From NCBI RefSeq assembly GCF_004343725.1, contig NZ_PTQW01000009.1, positions 1 through 64,000 of the forward strand: DNA of 64,000 nucleotides, in the 5' to 3' direction. The position numbers were made by a program, and so were the translations under genes. How positions within the stretch are numbered: position 1 is the first letter of the stretch; each line of letters opens with the position of its first letter. Of the stretch, positions 172 through 7,199 are shown in pieces. Under the pieces are notes generated by a model that saw nothing but the letters and a program-made list of their open reading frames with translations, ran no database searches and was not told where the DNA came from. The stretch is from Treponema sp. J25 (GTDB taxonomy: Bacteria; Spirochaetota; Spirochaetia; Treponematales; Breznakiellaceae).

Positions 172-1038
172 TTAAATCTTTTCAATGAGCTCTATGCCAT
201 TTGGTAAGCCGGAACGATTTACATTTATTTCATAGTCATTGAAATTTCTCGGGGGATTAATACCTTCCTTTTTCTTTACTGAGATAAGATCGAAAAGAAT
301 GTGGGCTGGTGCATTTCCTAATTCACTCTCATGTTTGAATACAAATAGTTTGCGGGTTGCCATTTTTCCCCGAGATGCAGACCTGTCATGTTCAAACATA
401 TTAATCAATGCTTCCCAGAAAAGTTCTAGGTCTTCTTCGGAAAAACCTGTCCCTTTGTTTGGGTCATTGGCAAGTCTTGCAGAGACATAACCTTCCACCC
501 GGTATAATCCATAGGGGACGATGTGTTTACGTCCGATGGTTCGCTCCTTTTCAGCTTCTTCTTCACGGGTAACCGTTAGTCTTGTAATAGTAACTTCTTG
601 TTGAACAATAGGATCAATGCTTCGTGAAAAATTTAATTGAACAGGGCCACGTACTTGTCCGCAGTTGTCTCCTACACTTAACACAGCACCAAAAGTACGA
701 ATATCATAAAAATTTCTGCACATCCATGTACGAGCTCGATTAATGCCATCGAGATCTGCTTTTTTACCAGGTTCAAGACCAACAGCTAGATATGCTTGTC
801 TATGGTTTGTATTTAACGGAATGCCCTCTTTAATATAAATACGGTATCCTGTTGCATCTCTTCTTACCATTTCTACATAATTGCGAATTTTACGTTTTAA
901 ACACACATCGGTGACGATACCGTACCCTGTCTCAGGATCAATGCGCGGCATGTTTCCTGCATCTGGATCTCCGTTTGGATTGCCATTTTCTACATCATAC
1001 AACAACACAAACTCATAGCGATTCCTCAAAATTCCCAT
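172..1038 (-). CDS. cas7: Type I-C Cascade backbone protein Cas7c (Csd2)
   Basis: 288 residues, the usual length for the Csd2/Cas7 family. The N-terminal block NGNPNGDPDAGNMPR, followed by a region rich in Lys and Arg, is diagnostic of this subfamily. Cas7 copies polymerise along the crRNA to form the Cascade backbone and position the target DNA. The start at 1038 is backed by AAGGAGTG a few bases upstream. It follows cas8c by 46 bases and is followed by the start of cas4, the canonical order. Its DNA looks more AT-rich than the cas5 and helicase-coding parts of the same operon. No missing motif is apparent, so it is probably functional. Confidence 0.93.
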   Translation of the reverse strand: MGILRNRYEFVLLYDVENGNPNGDPDAGNMPRIDPETGYGIVTDVCLKRKIRNYVEMVRRDATGYRIYIKEGIPLNTNHRQAYLAVGLEPGKKADLDGINRARTWMCRNFYDIRTFGAVLSVGDNCGQVRGPVQLNFSRSIDPIVQQEVTITRLTVTREEEAEKERTIGRKHIVPYGLYRVEGYVSARLANDPNKGTGFSEEDLELFWEALINMFEHDRSASRGKMATRKLFVFKHESELGNAPAHILFDLISVKKKEGINPPRNFNDYEINVNRSGLPNGIELIEKI

Positions 1039-1084: not shown

Positions 1085-2971
1085 TTACTCATTAAGATTA
1101 CTGTTTGTTTTATAAAAGGCTGCCTTTTGGTGATAGTAACCCAGCACAAAAATGCCTTGTTCTTCTAGGTTAAGTCTGGCAGGGAAAGGTGCAGCATCCA
1201 ACATATTTAGAAGCGTTTGGATCTTTCTGTCAGAAGCTCCTCCATATTCTGCTTTTGATGTCCAATAGTTTGAAAGACGTAATAAGGTAGGAAACACGCT
1301 AGCGGGAGTGGCACAAGCAGCAGTAAAATAACGATCTTTAATAGTAGCATTAATAGTATCGCCTATTGCTTCTTTCTGTACCTTTTCCAGTACTGCGAAT
1401 AAGCGTCCTAATACATAGGGCGTATTCTTGTAAGATTCATTTAATGACATTTGTAACACCTCCTGGTATGGATTTTTGCCATAACGGCGATATTTACGGA
1501 TTAAGTGGGCTTTTATATAGGCTGTACGAATATAGTTAATTTTTACACTACGAACTCTGTTATTTGCTGTTGTTTCCTCCCCATCGTGGCGTATACGATT
1601 TAAGATCGCGTTATACAAATTTTCAGGGTAGGGTGTACCCATGAGAATGGAACGCATAAAAGCTCCGCCTAACAAAGACCAGGATTTTTTTACCTCTTCA
1701 TCACGCTGGGTTACTTTGGGCGAAACACATTCGGCAAGAATGCGGTAGGGTGAGATGTACGTCGGCTGGTTAGCGTATTCTTTTTCGATTTGAAGGTCCT
1801 CGTAATGTTGCATAATTCGTTCAGCAAATACCCCAAATGGCTCAGTAAGGAAGAATCGTACGGCGAGTCGTGAGGCATTTGGCGCTAGCCCAAGCACATA
1901 GAAACGTGTATTGTCATCCAAATCTTCGCGCAATTTAGCTAAGTCTATGGCTCTCCCCTGTTCTACCGATTTCGCCACTTCTCCTAGCATTTTTTCTGCA
2001 TTGTTGGCACGCTTACGCTTGTTTTTATCATGGGCTTCTTCTGTTTTGCCTTCTTCTTGTTCCTGCTGATATTCTGGATTCAGAAACGAATAAAATGCAC
2101 TGGCGTAACGTTTGTCAGGTGCGTCTGCCCAATAAACGACAGCGGTATCTCCGAGAAAAATGGGCTGGTTCGGATTTTGCCTTGAAAGCAAATAGTTTAG
2201 TGCAACGCCATAGCCAGAAGCTACACGCTGACTGATGGGTGAATTAGCCCCCTGTTCTTTCCCATAAGAAGTAAAGGCATCCAGGTTGAAGCTCACCAAT
2301 GATGCACCTTTTGTTTGTGCTCCTGGAACTCCTTTAATGTCAGGATGCAACCGTGCAACAAGTTCCTTTTGTCCCGTGACCAAGCACTGCATTTCAGTAG
2401 TCTGTTGTCCTGTTCTGGAGTTTTCCCAAGCACGCCGAATTTCAGTGTCATCCAGTGCGTTTTTACCCTCTACCTGAAAGATGAGATTACCACCTTCCAA
2501 TAATCCTTCCAGATGACGGGCAATCACAGAATGTTGAGAAGCCGTTTTGGGGTTATACTTTTGTAGAAATGCGATAACCGCGTGCGCCGCTGGAGAGTCG
2601 GCTTTCTGAAGAAGTTGGACGTTACGTTCTCGAAACGCCTCGAAACGCTTTTGGGCATAATCTGGGTCTTTGGCTTCTTTCCCCGTTAGCCCAAGTACGT
2701 AAGTTGCGTTGTCACACAAAAAATTGGCAGCGATGTTCACGCTGCGTTTGACCTGTTCAGGAACATTCATGCGCTTGGGGAGCTCCACGGTCTTCTTCCC
2801 TTGCTGAACAGGAACAAAGAGCGGGATAATGTCCAACAATTCGCCTTGTTCGGACAAATTGAGCGCATAACTGACCGGCGCATTGCTGTAGCCTGGTTCG
2901 GCAATCTCTACGCCCTCTGGCGGGTCGTTCAGCAAAATCTGGTAGTAGTTGTAAAGCGCCTGCAAAATCAT
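1085..2971 (-). CDS. cas8c: Type I-C Cascade large subunit Cas8c (Csd1)
   Basis: 628 residues, a typical length for Csd1/Cas8c, the large subunit that recognises the PAM and recruits Cas3. It starts MILQALYNYYQIL, as family members do, and has the expected conserved blocks (SFNLDAFTSYGKEQ-type segment near the middle, then FYVLGLAPNASRLAVRFF). The ATG at 2971 overlaps the cas5 stop (ATGA), implying translational coupling. In type I-C systems an internal start near the 3' end of cas8c can produce a separate Cas11 small subunit. Candidate in-frame ATG codons exist in the last third, for example the Met of MSLNESYKNTPYVLGRLF, which follows AGGAGGTGT within about ten bases. That makes an internal Cas11c start plausible here. 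Confidence 0.92.
   Translation of the reverse strand: MILQALYNYYQILLNDPPEGVEIAEPGYSNAPVSYALNLSEQGELLDIIPLFVPVQQGKKTVELPKRMNVPEQVKRSVNIAANFLCDNATYVLGLTGKEAKDPDYAQKRFEAFRERNVQLLQKADSPAAHAVIAFLQKYNPKTASQHSVIARHLEGLLEGGNLIFQVEGKNALDDTEIRRAWENSRTGQQTTEMQCLVTGQKELVARLHPDIKGVPGAQTKGASLVSFNLDAFTSYGKEQGANSPISQRVASGYGVALNYLLSRQNPNQPIFLGDTAVVYWADAPDKRYASAFYSFLNPEYQQEQEEGKTEEAHDKNKRKRANNAEKMLGEVAKSVEQGRAIDLAKLREDLDDNTRFYVLGLAPNASRLAVRFFLTEPFGVFAERIMQHYEDLQIEKEYANQPTYISPYRILAECVSPKVTQRDEEVKKSWSLLGGAFMRSILMGTPYPENLYNAILNRIRHDGEETTANNRVRSVKINYIRTAYIKAHLIRKYRRYGKNPYQEVLQMSLNESYKNTPYVLGRLFAVLEKVQKEAIGDTINATIKDRYFTAACATPASVFPTLLRLSNYWTSKAEYGGASDRKIQTLLNMLDAAPFPARLNLEEQGIFVLGYYHQKAAFYKTNSNLNE
1087..1451 (-). 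other. Possible internal start for Cas11c within cas8c
   Basis: In frame with cas8c, an ATG at about 1451 (MSLNESYKNTPYVLGRLF) is preceded by CAGGAGGTGTTACAA, a strong Shine-Dalgarno sequence with good spacing inside a coding region. Translation from it would give a helical protein of about 120 residues from the Cas8c C-terminus. This matches the known production of the type I-C small subunit Cas11c by internal initiation. The ribosome-binding site is seen directly; the function is inferred from the family. Confidence 0.6.
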
Positions 2972-3633
2972 CGCCGCACCTCCTCAGGTTTTGGCACGGT
3001 AATCTCGCCGTCTTCCATGACAGCGCGGAAGAACATCGGCTGAATGTCGCGCGGGTTGGAGAAATCCAGGTCGTAGAGCATGTAGCCCAAGTCACGTTTA
3101 CCTGTCAGCGGGCTTGTGGGAATGCCGCCTTTGTCTTCGATGAGCATCACTCTGGCAGGGAACTCGCGCGTCCCCAGGCAGGGGGCGTGGAAATGCTGCC
3201 CGTTCCGCAGGCGGCGCAAGACCATGTTGTAGTGCTTCTCTTTCGTGTCATCTGGTCCCGCCTTTTCGGTCAACTCGAAGTGCGCCTCGATGACGTAATC
3301 CACATCCTTCAAGACCATCGCGGCGCGCTGCTGGCGGGCTTCGGTGGCGGCGATGTAGAGCGGCTTGTTTGCGCCCTTCATCACCTGCAAGGCGTTATCC
3401 ACCGACGCCTTGTCGCTCACCTCGTTACGGCGGATGTTGGTGAACTGGATTTCCTTAAGGACGTGGATTTTCTCTATCACCCAGCGAATGGCGGGTTTCC
3501 AATAGACAGCCTCGATAATACCGCGCGCCGCCGACGGGGTGATAACATCATAGCTGACGCGCTCCACTTTCATTTCGGGACGGGTGAACAGGGCATAATC
3601 ACCCTGTACTCGGATGGTAATACCATATCCCAT
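2968..3633 (-). CDS. cas5: Type I-C CRISPR protein Cas5c (Csd5/Cas5d)
   Basis: 221 residues. In type I-C, Cas5 replaces Cas6: it cleaves pre-crRNA at the repeat hairpin and stays bound to the 5' handle. The N-terminus GYGITIRVQGDYALFTRPEMKVE and the segment RREFPARV/GTREFPARVMLI are typical; a His-containing C-terminal half (QHFHAPCLG) is also present. The frame extends upstream to 3783, but the ATG at 3633 is preceded at the right distance by AAAGGAGGCC (3641-3650), so the longer start is rejected. It lies 88 bases after the cas3 stop and overlaps cas8c by ATGA. Its composition is more GC-rich than that of cas7. Confidence 0.92.
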   Translation of the reverse strand: MGYGITIRVQGDYALFTRPEMKVERVSYDVITPSAARGIIEAVYWKPAIRWVIEKIHVLKEIQFTNIRRNEVSDKASVDNALQVMKGANKPLYIAATEARQQRAAMVLKDVDYVIEAHFELTEKAGPDDTKEKHYNMVLRRLRNGQHFHAPCLGTREFPARVMLIEDKGGIPTSPLTGKRDLGYMLYDLDFSNPRDIQPMFFRAVMEDGEITVPKPEEVRR

Positions 3634-3721
3634 TCTGTTGGGCCTCCTTTCAAAATGGGTAAAGCAAATCTCCGATTTGCTTGAATCCTGATCACATAAC
3701 ACAAACCTTAGGTTCGTGCTA

Positions 3722-6700
3722 TTAAAACAACAACCCCTCGCCACCACCATTGTCAGGAACGAGTAGGCCACGCTGGGGATCATAAAAATCGTTCATTGCC
3801 TCTGGGTTAAGAAAGTGATACGTGTCTTCGATAGTCTGAATCACCCCTTTCGCACTGAGCCTGTCAAACTCATTCTCAAAAATTGAAACTGTGTAGGGCT
3901 GAAGTTTTCGTAATGTAGATAATGGATAATCGGTATATTTTAACTCATCGATGAGTATTTCTGCCTCCTTGTTATATGGAATGATTACTGTTACGGTTGG
4001 GTCCTCGATGATGTGGAACGCCTGTGCCGCCGTCTCGAACTTGAACCTGCCGTCTGTGTCATCGAAGCATTCCATGATGTGCTTGAAGTCAAATGCCTGC
4101 GGCTCTTGAAGGTTGTACAACTGTCCGAAAAACGCCTGAATAGCAGGAATAGAAATTGGCGCTTCTGCGTGTTCGCGTAAAACCATCCGGGCAACTTCGG
4201 CGGTTTGTTTCAGGAAAAAGGGCATTTTCTTGATAAGCTCCGACTTCGGTTCGAAGACGAACATCTCGCTCACGCTGCGCTTCATTTCGCGGTTGATGCG
4301 TCCTGCTGCCTGATTGATGGAATCCAGTCCCGTCAGGGCGCGGTATCCAACAGGGAAGTCTAGATCAATGCCCGCTTCCATAACCGTTGTCGATATGACA
4401 CGACAGAGCTGCCCCTTTGCAAGTCGTTCTTTGATTTCTTCCAGTCTGATGCGACGATGGGCGGCACACATCAACGTTGAAAGATGATAGTTCCCCTCGC
4501 CCTGCAAACCGACGAACAGTCCGCTGGCGTGGCGGCGGGTGTTGACAATGCACAGAACTTGCTCGTGTTTGTTCAGACGAGTAAGCAGATCTCTATCGGT
4601 AAGCTCGCCGAGATGTTTTACTACCACGCGCTTGAAGAAATTGAACAACTGCTGCGGATTGGGTGCGAGTTCCTTAACTTCTGTCTTTTCGGGCAGGAAA
4701 CGTTCCAGCCCTGGCTGAGTAGCCGTACAAAAGAGTACGCTTGCGCCGTAGTTGACCACCAATTCCCAAATCGCCGCCATCGACGGGCGCATGTACTCGC
4801 GGGGCAGCATTTGGGCTTCGTCAAAGATAATCACGCTTCTGGCAATGTTATGCAGTTTGCGGCAATGTGATGATTTGTTGGAAAATAACGACTCGAAGAA
4901 TTGCACGTTGGTCGTAACCACGATAGGGATATCCCAGTTCTCCGTAGCCAGTTTTAGTTTGGTAAGTACGCTGTTTGTGCGGTCATCAGGATTGTCTTTC
5001 CTCTTACTTTCCCAGTCGAAGTGGGAGTGATGCTCCAGCACGTTCTCTTCCCCAAAGATATCTTTGAACACCCCGGCATTCTGTTCGATGATGGTCGTAA
5101 ACGGGATAACATAGATGACGCGCTTTAAGCCATGTTCAGCGGCGTGATGGAGCGCAAACGCCATCGAAGCCAGTGTCTTGCCGCCACCTGTGGGTACAGT
5201 CAGCGAGAAAAAGCCCGGCGATTCGGTCTTACCTTTTTCAATGCAGGCATGGAGTATCTCATTGCGCTTGCGGTTGATCTCGCTGTTCGGATTTTCGAAG
5301 CGTTTCAGGTATTTGTCCAGTTTATCGCGCAAAACTGGGATGTTGTCATGTCCGCCGCGCGGCTTTGCGCCTTTCATGTAGGTTTCAGTTTCTTGAAAGT
5401 CGGCGTCTACCAGTGCAGAGTAAATCATGCGTGTCAGGAAAGAAAGCGAAAATCCGAGATAGTCTTTGGACTGTTTTTCATAAAAAACGGGTAGGCGCAA
5501 GGGGCGAATAGGCAAACGTTGCGGAAATTCCAAAGAAGACAAGTCCAACTCGCTTTGGTATTCGTTGTAATCAGAAATGTGGTTTTTTAGCCGCCCACAG
5601 ACGGTACTGCTTTCCAAATCAGTTTCACTGCCATAATCGGGCAAGCCTGCATGATGTCCCAGAATGGGATATGCCAGTAGTTGAGCAAAGACTTGTTGGG
5701 GTGTGCCTTCGAGCAGCTTTTTGAGTTCCTTTGCCCCTGCTGTAGAATGGTCTACCCGTGGGCCTATACCTTCTAACCGCTTTTGAAACTCGGTGGAGTA
5801 TTTGCCCAAATCGTGAACCAATCCCGCAATGTATGCTAACTCTGCGACGTTGGCGTCCGCCCCGAACTTTCGGGCAAGTTCAGCTGTGTTTCGCAAGTGT
5901 TCAATGAGTGGCTGCCAGTATTCGTGGACTTCCCCTTCGCGACGGTGAGCGAAGAAACGGGTTTGCGGTTCGTTGAGAACTGCTATCCCATACAGTTTTA
6001 CTAGTCGCTTTGCCTCCTTCACCAGAACTTCACGCAGTTCTGGTGGTTCCAGTACTTCCACATCCGCTCCCCAGCCACGAATCCAGGGAAGCATTTCAGT
6101 AGTCTCAGCTATGTCTGCCTGCCATAAAAGATAACCATTTTCCTGTTCCTGAATTTTTTGGGATAGATGCCATCGGCTTTCTTTTACCCGTTGAGCGACT
6201 CTTGGATGAAATCGCAACACCACATGCTTTGGTTCTTCTTCGGTAGTCCAAATTGCCCAGGCATTTGCTAAATGTTCTCGTAGATTAAAATCTGTGGGAA
6301 TAGTATACTTTTCTGTCGTTTTTTCAGCCCGTTCAATCCGTTCAATCTTGTAGGTACGAAGTGCTCCTGGAGGTTCACTAAAACATATAAGTTGGGTGGT
6401 TTGTCCTGTCGCGTATGGTTCAATAAAATAAGGACTTACAACGTAAACAAATACTTTATCCAACTTTTCACTTCGATGCCAAATTCTGACCTTTTGAAGG
6501 TTAGCCCAACCTTCTGTTAGGAGTTCTAAAATACGTAAATAATTGGGATCGTCTATTTGGATATCACTATCCATTATATCGGCTGCCACAAGAATTTGCT
6601 GACTGAGGCGGTCTGCCCAAAGTTTCATGGCCATACCAAGTTTTCTCAAGGCCGATGCTGCATGAGGGTTTTTCTTATCTGATCGTGTTGCAAGAAGTCT

Positions 6701-6955
6701 CGACGACAAATGCAGGGCCATCGCTTCATGGAGGTTTAACTGAAGATTGATTAGATCTGCCTTCCGATCTATTTTCAGCGTTCTATCATCATCTTCATAA
6801 ATGTAAGAAGGAAGATCTGTGAGGTATCGATTGATAGTGGAGCGATCTACCTGTAATCGACGAGCTAGTTCTGCCTGGGAGAGTCCTTCGGGATGAGCTA
6901 GAAGGAGTGTTTCAATCTGTAATAAACGACTTGCCTTATTTTCCGCTCTGTTCAT
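3722..6955 (-). CDS. cas3: HTH-WYL transcription regulator fused to Cas3 helicase-nuclease
   Basis: 1077 residues with two parts. Residues 1-330 are a WYL regulator: a winged HTH (about 10-55, LSQAELARRLQVDRSTINRY), a WYL fold (about 150-215) whose signature is changed to TTQLICFSE, and a C-terminal WCX-like domain (245-320). Residues 331-1077 are a complete type I-C Cas3: HD nuclease (VHDLGK at 380-385, DHSTAGA near 402, HHAG near 434), Walker A TVPTGGGKT (586-594), DEAQ box (712-715), CTATQP (743-748) and QAAGRINRE (882-890). The joint has no stop and no ATG or GTG between residues 288 and 331, so a separate Cas3 start is unlikely. Ordinary Cas3 proteins start at FFAH-like residues near 334. 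Cas3 unwinds and degrades DNA recruited by Cascade. The fused regulator could sense a nucleic-acid ligand and control the operon or the nuclease. Confidence 0.9.
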   Translation of the reverse strand: MNRAENKASRLLQIETLLLAHPEGLSQAELARRLQVDRSTINRYLTDLPSYIYEDDDRTLKIDRKADLINLQLNLHEAMALHLSSRLLATRSDKKNPHAASALRKLGMAMKLWADRLSQQILVAADIMDSDIQIDDPNYLRILELLTEGWANLQKVRIWHRSEKLDKVFVYVVSPYFIEPYATGQTTQLICFSEPPGALRTYKIERIERAEKTTEKYTIPTDFNLREHLANAWAIWTTEEEPKHVVLRFHPRVAQRVKESRWHLSQKIQEQENGYLLWQADIAETTEMLPWIRGWGADVEVLEPPELREVLVKEAKRLVKLYGIAVLNEPQTRFFAHRREGEVHEYWQPLIEHLRNTAELARKFGADANVAELAYIAGLVHDLGKYSTEFQKRLEGIGPRVDHSTAGAKELKKLLEGTPQQVFAQLLAYPILGHHAGLPDYGSETDLESSTVCGRLKNHISDYNEYQSELDLSSLEFPQRLPIRPLRLPVFYEKQSKDYLGFSLSFLTRMIYSALVDADFQETETYMKGAKPRGGHDNIPVLRDKLDKYLKRFENPNSEINRKRNEILHACIEKGKTESPGFFSLTVPTGGGKTLASMAFALHHAAEHGLKRVIYVIPFTTIIEQNAGVFKDIFGEENVLEHHSHFDWESKRKDNPDDRTNSVLTKLKLATENWDIPIVVTTNVQFFESLFSNKSSHCRKLHNIARSVIIFDEAQMLPREYMRPSMAAIWELVVNYGASVLFCTATQPGLERFLPEKTEVKELAPNPQQLFNFFKRVVVKHLGELTDRDLLTRLNKHEQVLCIVNTRRHASGLFVGLQGEGNYHLSTLMCAAHRRIRLEEIKERLAKGQLCRVISTTVMEAGIDLDFPVGYRALTGLDSINQAAGRINREMKRSVSEMFVFEPKSELIKKMPFFLKQTAEVARMVLREHAEAPISIPAIQAFFGQLYNLQEPQAFDFKHIMECFDDTDGRFKFETAAQAFHIIEDPTVTVIIPYNKEAEILIDELKYTDYPLSTLRKLQPYTVSIFENEFDRLSAKGVIQTIEDTYHFLNPEAMNDFYDPQRGLLVPDNGGGEGLLF

Positions 6956-6978
6956 AGTACAATACCTTTGTTGAATGT

Positions 6979-6984
6979 AGTATA
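6979..6984 (-). promoter_or_regulatory. Probable -10 box of the cas operon
   Basis: TATACT on the minus strand, 23 bases before the cas3 start at 6955. No good -35 hexamer lies at 17 bases; the place is taken by the palindrome at 6988-7018. That is expected for a promoter run by a bound regulator. Only AAAGG precedes the start codon, a weak ribosome-binding site. Confidence 0.5.
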
Positions 6985-6987
6985 CAC

Positions 6988-7018
6988 TTACTTTGTTGCA
7001 GGTACTGCAACAAAGTAA
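6988..7018. promoter_or_regulatory. 31-bp palindrome, candidate operator for the WYL-Cas3 fusion
   Basis: TTACTTTGTTGCAG and its exact complement CTGCAACAAAGTAA flank a 3-base centre (GTA), a perfect inverted repeat with 14-base arms. A further half-site, CTTTGTTGAA, sits at 6967-6976 in direct orientation. The palindrome covers the -35 region of the putative cas promoter and ends 33 bases before the start of a gene whose product begins with an HTH-WYL regulator. Autoregulation is the natural reading; it is inferred, not shown. Confidence 0.65.
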
Positions 7019-7199
7019 AAAAAAATTAATTTTTATGTTAATTAACCGGGGGTCTATTTTATTTTGTTTCAGGTCGTCATAGAATATTATCTCCTGAAAG
7101 GATAGCGAGATGGTTTATTGTTTAGGAGAAACAGAATGAAGAAAGTATACCAGAATTGACACAGGAGATAAAAATAGAGGAGATACTGCAAGGCCCCCC

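Follow-up and report, generated by a model that had tools for sequence, protein, structure and literature searches.

WYL-domain transcription factors are known from several settings, and the closest relative of the regulator studied here with a solved structure is DriD, an ssDNA-triggered activator that recognizes a pseudo-palindrome whose centre falls on the -35 element and whose spacing to the -10 element does not vary, and that, with ssDNA held in its WYL domain, anchors the polymerase on poor promoters (PMC12340889). PafBC is likewise a WYL activator with an ssDNA ligand, and acts by sigma adaptation, which lets the housekeeping RNA polymerase use its promoters (PMC11804915). Among defence systems, the site of the repressor CapW overlaps the -10 element (PMC9122588) and that of BrxR lies just downstream of the promoter (PMC9122601). 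The fusion of a WYL domain to the HD-helicase Cas3 in some type I CRISPR systems is already known (Makarova et al. 2014, PMC4012209), and how infection is sensed and CRISPR operons are switched on remains poorly known in most bacteria. Open-access titles and the beginnings of abstracts, which leave most subscription journals uncovered, yielded no operator of the kind described below and no shared WYL-controlled cas promoter. We analysed a palindrome lying in front of one such fusion gene and, on balance, favour its interpretation as an operator-promoter module whereby a DriD-like HTH-WYL sensor activates CRISPR operons, with binding, direction and ligand all being inferred.

Results

An HTH-WYL-Cas3 gene and its operon

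The window, that is, the whole 64-kb stretch of DNA analysed, carries genes in the type I-C order Cas3, Cas5c, Cas8c/Csd1 and Cas7/Csd2 (Table 1), with matches to TIGR01876, TIGR01863, TIGR02589 and the Cas3 core and HD models all exceeding the cut-offs. Window position 1 is the start of the contig and the later cas genes and array beyond Cas7/Csd2 are thus out of view. In the fusion protein, the Pfam models HTH_11 and WCX exceeded the cut-off and WYL fell slightly below it (20.3 vs 21.8 bits), the protein having no W-Y-L triplet itself. Pfam matches and fold together place its N-terminus among the WYL-domain transcription factors of the wHTH-WYL-WCX type.

Table 1 Features of the fusion gene, its operon and the upstream palindrome (window coordinates).
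Feature	Position	Strand	Remark
HTH-WYL-Cas3 fusion gene	3722..6955	-	1077 aa
wHTH DNA-binding domain	6746..6955	-	~aa 1-70; recognition helix around VDRSTINRY
Three-helix segment	6569..6733	-	~aa 75-129; counterpart of DriD three-helix bundle
WYL domain	6308..6547	-	~aa 137-216; basic residues R200, K203, R206
WCX domain	5990..6229	-	~aa 243-322
Cas3 HD nuclease domain	5387..5908	-	aa 350-523; TIGR01596
Cas3 helicase core	4244..5203	-	aa 585-904; TIGR01587
Cas5c	2968..3633	-	start inferred: internal ATG, aa 51 of mechanical ORF 2968-3783
Cas8c/Csd1	1085..2971	-	
Cas7/Csd2	172..1038	-	
31-bp palindrome	6988..7018	.	14-nt exact arms, spacer GTA (+ strand)
Conserved 19-bp operator core	6994..7012	-	TGTTGCAGTACCTGCAACA (gene strand); ~ -40 to -22 of promoter
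Predicted -10 element	6979..6984	-	TATACT (reads 6984-6979), exactly 9 nt past core
Direct half-site	6966..6973	.	CTTTGTTG

A palindrome upstream of the fusion gene

A first-pass annotation, made from sequence alone, had described 14-base exact arms around GTA at 6988-7018, and this held: the two 14-nt arms (6988-7001 and 7005-7018) are complementary at 14/14 positions around the 3-nt spacer GTA (+ strand). No longer palindrome exists in the 64-kb window, the runner-up having arms of 11 nt, and the longest arm in 40 first-order-Markov copies of the whole window was 13 nt; for the 244-bp intergenic stretch, none of 2000 Markov copies attained 14-nt arms. Across the 3.18-Mb genome, no second copy of the 31-mer was found with ≤3 mismatches allowed over the 28 arm bases, and the ATG at 6955 lies 33 bp downstream of its end. 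The annotation had also proposed that the palindrome covers the -35 position of the likely cas promoter, which was confirmed relative to the predicted TATACT -10 element. The direct half-site that it placed at 6967 exists, but at 6966-6973.

The word CAACAAA of this half-site is missing at the same place in the closest relative (L003), by which comparison the half-site is not conserved, and it was rejected as a further operator. A partial arm at 7057-7072 was also considered for that role. Separately, an extra TGTTGC half-site was observed near the fusion-gene start in L032, L033 and L034, at -16, -29 and -23 from the matched start, respectively.

Conservation in front of fused genes and promoter geometry

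Seventeen fused loci, full-length or near full-length, were assembled by protein similarity, comprising the window, L003 and L032-L046, the records of the last group being mostly from Anaerolineae and other Chloroflexota, with one from Ignavibacteriales. The core TGTTGCA-N5-TGCAACA was present at ≤2/14 mismatches within 1 kb upstream in 14/17 of them, so the check that the first-pass annotation had set itself, recovery of the same palindrome before related WYL-Cas3 genes, was passed. Only the inner part of the palindrome is conserved across loci. At each of the 14 loci with a site at ≤2 mismatches, TAnnnT follows the core after exactly 9 nt. A scan of the 1 kb upstream recovered a 3-mismatch site only in L044 and no site in L039 and L046. 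The site in L032-L035 precedes a small HTH gene that is itself upstream of the fusion gene.

The presence of the operator in L032-L035, revealed by the 1-kb scan, refuted the idea of its loss from fused loci whose recognition helices are altered. Small HTH genes (~68 aa) often lie between the operator and the WYL-Cas3 gene (L032-L035; L206-L227), and in L035, L039 and L046 the helix of the small HTH protein (RRT-L/V-NNYL) is identical to that of the downstream WYL-Cas3 protein.

The geometry of the promoter was examined over 32 tabulated sites, from which L175, L177, L182, L185 and L186 (all ≤3 mismatches) had been dropped before the -10 count, because they lay >150 bp away or resembled half-sites upstream of homologs with no identified cas genes, and to which L159 (with TTTC-type arms, see below) had been added by hand. 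TAnnnT starts 9 nt after the 19-mer in 23/32 sites, any other offset being represented by at most two, and the hexamer has A in second place in 29 and T in sixth place in 28 of the 32. These sites are not independent and form 20 clusters at 60% identity; with the clusters weighted equally, the offset-9 figure is ~13.8/20. If the hexamer is taken as -12 to -7, the core occupies -40 to -22 with its centre at -31, the usual place of the -35 box, and at 17-bp spacing 26/32 sites have ≤1/6 matches to TTGACA. The sites therefore share the arrangement of DriD, in which a palindrome sits around -35 and keeps a fixed spacing to -10, with a -10 element that is predicted and not mapped. They do not share that of BrxR and CapW, whose operators lie over or downstream of -10, as the core runs from about -40 to -22 when numbered from the predicted -10.

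The site accompanies the HTH-WYL regulator

Homologs of aa 1-325 were detected in 184/394 genomes of the window's class (E ≤ 1e-12). At many loci of this class, HTH-WYL has a gene of its own, with the palindrome placed between that gene and cas3-cas5-cas8c-cas7 (L094, L156, L160, L165, L169). Among 40 homologous loci of the class, fetched by protein similarity, 20 had a site with ≤3 mismatches no more than 200 bp from the gene, 8 of them with ≤1 mismatch; for 300 arm-shuffled control palindromes searched over the same 40 loci, the mean was 0.42 and the highest count 3. None of 20 distinct cas3 loci lacking this HTH-WYL, drawn from the window's family and order, had a ≤3-mismatch site in the 450 bp upstream. 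The same module was also found before type I-E genes (L155, L158) and type I-F genes (L163, L166, L167), near I-B (L249) or I-A-like (L248) genes, and directly before cas1 in L234. Proteins joining the same kind of HTH to a HisKA_2 histidine kinase (L102:6388-7710 and L113:7176-8501) have the palindrome just upstream. By linkage, the site goes with the HTH-WYL module rather than with Cas3.

Some loci deserve separate mention. Close to the control cas3 loci L004 and L019, which come from the same genomes as L104 and L124, there is a distant match to the WYL domain, and the control locus L011 matches the TTTC form of the site at 3 mismatches. L091:7054-9715 encodes a standalone HTH-WYL protein, 51% identical to that of the window, and the identical core palindrome comes after it; no recognized cas gene was found there and the next ORF had no Pfam match. 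Another family member occurs at L168:2886-6383, where the HTH-WYL gene directly precedes a Cas9-like ORF (HNH_4, RuvC_III) and no clear operator is present.

A blind search with the composite motif

Core-only searches, which recovered 39/394 genomes of the window's class, were noisy, with many matches inside ORFs, and a composite with the -10 element, TGTTGC-N7-GCAACA-N9-TANNNT, was therefore chosen for the blind search, with the reversed motif as control. The composite was found in 12/17 genomes bearing fused loci, as a single copy in all but one of these (control 0/17), and in 58/396 genomes of another class, that of Bellilinea (G513), with a control of 0/396. Three of the 396 genomes (G500, G513, G514) hold already known fused loci, and two of those match. 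From ~60 motif places, 28 new loci were inspected at 1.5 kb and 20 at larger range. An HTH-WYL homolog lay within 1.5 kb, closely downstream of the motif, at 21/28 new loci and a small HTH gene alone at one more, while 6/28 had neither within that distance. The wider fetch identified HTH-WYL in 14/20 loci, in eight of which it was part of an ORF of 1155-1277 aa (L239-L241, L243, L244, L246, L250, L251). All four of the long ORFs that were scanned matched Cas3 models, the best match of L239, L240 and L246 being the PRK09694 Cas3 model; fusions of HTH-WYL to Cas3 are thus probably not limited to type I-C. At L233 and L235-L238 the composite motif was present with no HTH-WYL or cas match in the fetched region. 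In the three genomes of L236-L238, similar composite motifs stand beside non-cas genes, and in two of these a ~615-aa helix-turn-helix-like protein adjoins the motif.

Recognition helices and operator letters

Regulators with a site and with recognition helices reading HR, HK, DR or NR are associated with TTGC/GCAA arms, and L158 and L167, with an SK helix, with TTTC/GAAA arms. In L159, also SK, AGTTTC-N7-GAAACT lies 24 bp past the regulator match, and TAAACT comes 9 nt further on. L159 and L167 are 65% identical and fall inside a TTGC-type group, and L158 belongs to a different group, indicating that at least two lineages changed. Covariation of the SK helix with the TTTC operator is thus shown for three loci in two lineages, without binding data. 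The correspondence between helix and operator is not a simple code. TTGC arms are retained in L033, L034 and L035 despite other helices (TRRET, LERRT), L163 combines an SR helix with mixed arms, and the SF helix of L178 goes with a TTGC-type arm, so that S alone is not decisive. In addition, many homologs lacking an identified I-C cas gene have no palindrome even though their helix reads HRST.

Full-length homology to DriD

The family profile matched DriD (hmmsearch, 8tp8) end to end, over profile positions 2-316, with an E value of 2.1e-26, and PafBC more weakly (2e-14). The structure predicted for aa 1-325 (mean pLDDT 87.8) had DriD as its top Foldseek match; the fold groups with DriD, PafBC, BrxR and CapW, the structural matches to BrxR and CapW being weaker than that to DriD. 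A second structural comparison also ranked DriD first (Z 16.8), with an rmsd of 8.8 over 292 residues, a high value from which we conclude that the domains are arranged differently. Homology over the full length to homodimeric WYL activators of the DriD type, including the HTH and the three-helix segment, is established by these comparisons. A structure prediction of the full-length fusion (11 sequences) was poor, with a mean pLDDT of 49.4, and was not used; the fused structure alignment excludes L038, L041, L042 and L043, whose matched stretch was not in whole codons, and the partial L036 and L044.

K203 and R206, which align with the R-x-x-R of DriD, do not vary across 11 fused proteins. K or R at position 203 together with R at 206 was present in 17/17 fused and 17/19 unfused cas-linked proteins, according to our own grouping, and in 0/19 homologs without an identified I-C cas gene, only I-C cas genes having been sought. 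This conservation is compatible with ssDNA-triggered activation, where both activation and the ssDNA ligand are inferred by analogy.

Discussion

Conservation of the site, its geometry, its linkage to HTH-WYL, some covariation of helix and operator, and homology to DriD are shown here. The mechanism that we propose on this basis would rest on a module composed of an operator half, TGTTGCA-N5-TGCAACA, nine bases and a TAnnnT -10 box. The palindrome would most likely be occupied by an HTH-WYL dimer formed by the gene's own product and, once the WYL domain is loaded with its ligand, the bound dimer would recruit RNA polymerase in the manner of DriD. Two features make such recruitment probable: the dyad has its centre at the -35 position, with its spacing to -10 fixed, and a good -35 box is lacking. 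The ligand, by analogy with DriD, PafBC and also SiwR (PMC10693628), may be single-stranded DNA arising from infection or damage. At the many unfused loci of the window's class, a separate regulator gene just upstream of the module would control the cas operon behind it; in the fused case, the Cas3 nuclease-helicase would itself bear the sensor and transcription factor of its own operon, resulting in ligand-switched autoregulation. Binding, activation and the identity of the ligand remain inferences, as there are no binding or expression data. Further points that weigh against the proposal are the fused loci with a poor site or none (L044, L039, L046), the lack of a simple helix code, the loss of the W-Y-L triplet from the window's protein and the six blind-search loci with neither kind of HTH gene. 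The first-pass annotation had suggested that the fused protein, or its HTH part, represses or activates its own operon through this site, which conservation, linkage and covariation support with binding still inferred; it left the direction open, and activation now appears more likely than repression given the DriD-like geometry, which is unlike that of the CapW and BrxR sites.

Repression is the most serious of the alternatives, although we regard it as unlikely. An HTH-WYL(-Cas3) dimer seated on the -35 region would block the polymerase until a phage-derived ligand freed the site, and in its favour are the overlap of operator and promoter, the fact that the characterized defence WYL regulators CapW and BrxR repress and bind palindromes or inverted repeats, and the citation of Sll7009 as a repressor of a type I-D locus. 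However, CapW sits on the -10 element and BrxR downstream of the promoter, whereas the site described here is centred on -35; the fixed 9-bp offset across divergent loci and the poor -35 boxes better suit dependence on an activator, and the nearest homolog is DriD. Much less plausible is that the site belongs to another binder, either the small HTH protein of related loci or an unlinked host regulator. A ~68-aa HTH ORF follows the operator in 15/28 out-of-class loci, where its product could bind, and a small HTH ORF lies upstream of the fusion in L032-L035. Against this, the window and many further loci have the operator without a small HTH gene, the operator tracks HTH-WYL genes, including fusions of HTH proteins to histidine kinases, and in three loci its letters differ along with the HTH-WYL helix.

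An RNA hairpin or a terminator might be suggested, since perfect inverted repeats are able to fold into hairpins; the remaining possibility is a palindrome that arose by chance in AT-rich DNA. Both can be practically ruled out. A terminator or hairpin was rejected because, in the direction of the gene, the T-run comes before the arms and not after them, and conservation of the inner part alone, the -10 offset and genome-wide rarity indicate a DNA operator.

Beyond activation by a DriD-like sensor, a bolder reading is possible, in which a mobile module and a DriD-like sensor would operate together across type I subtypes and the fused Cas3 would be an ssDNA-triggered self-activator. Single-stranded DNA from the invasion, or from the degradation products of Cas3 itself, would then load the WYL domain and raise cas expression, closing a positive loop; in addition, the dimer bound to DNA could keep Cas3 at the cas promoter and off Cascade. 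If true, a nuclease doubling as the transcription factor of its own operon would be an unusual and very short feedback circuit. A single 34-base signature points to regulator, target promoter and transcription start over several type I subtypes, which makes the proposal directly testable.

Comparison with known systems

The relevant passages of Makarova et al. 2014 (PMC4012209) mention no operator, target promoter or DriD-like function for the WYL-Cas3 fusions. BrxR of BREX and CapW of CBASS are similar to the present regulators in being WYL proteins that control defence operons through palindromes or inverted repeats in the promoter region. PafBC differs in being a heterodimer with its motif at -26, and in its weaker profile match. 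The closest counterpart is the Caulobacter WYL activator DriD (PDB 8tp8, 9pfq, 9pfv), which shares the order wHTH, three helices, WYL and WCX, and also a palindromic site that has its centre at -35, keeps a constant spacing to -10 and comes with a poor -35 box. DriD is, however, a free 327-aa protein that recognizes ATACGAC-N7-GTCGTAT and controls DNA-damage genes rather than its own gene, whereas the present system has TGTTGCA-N5-TGCAACA in front of cas operons and, in the window, a regulator fused to Cas3.
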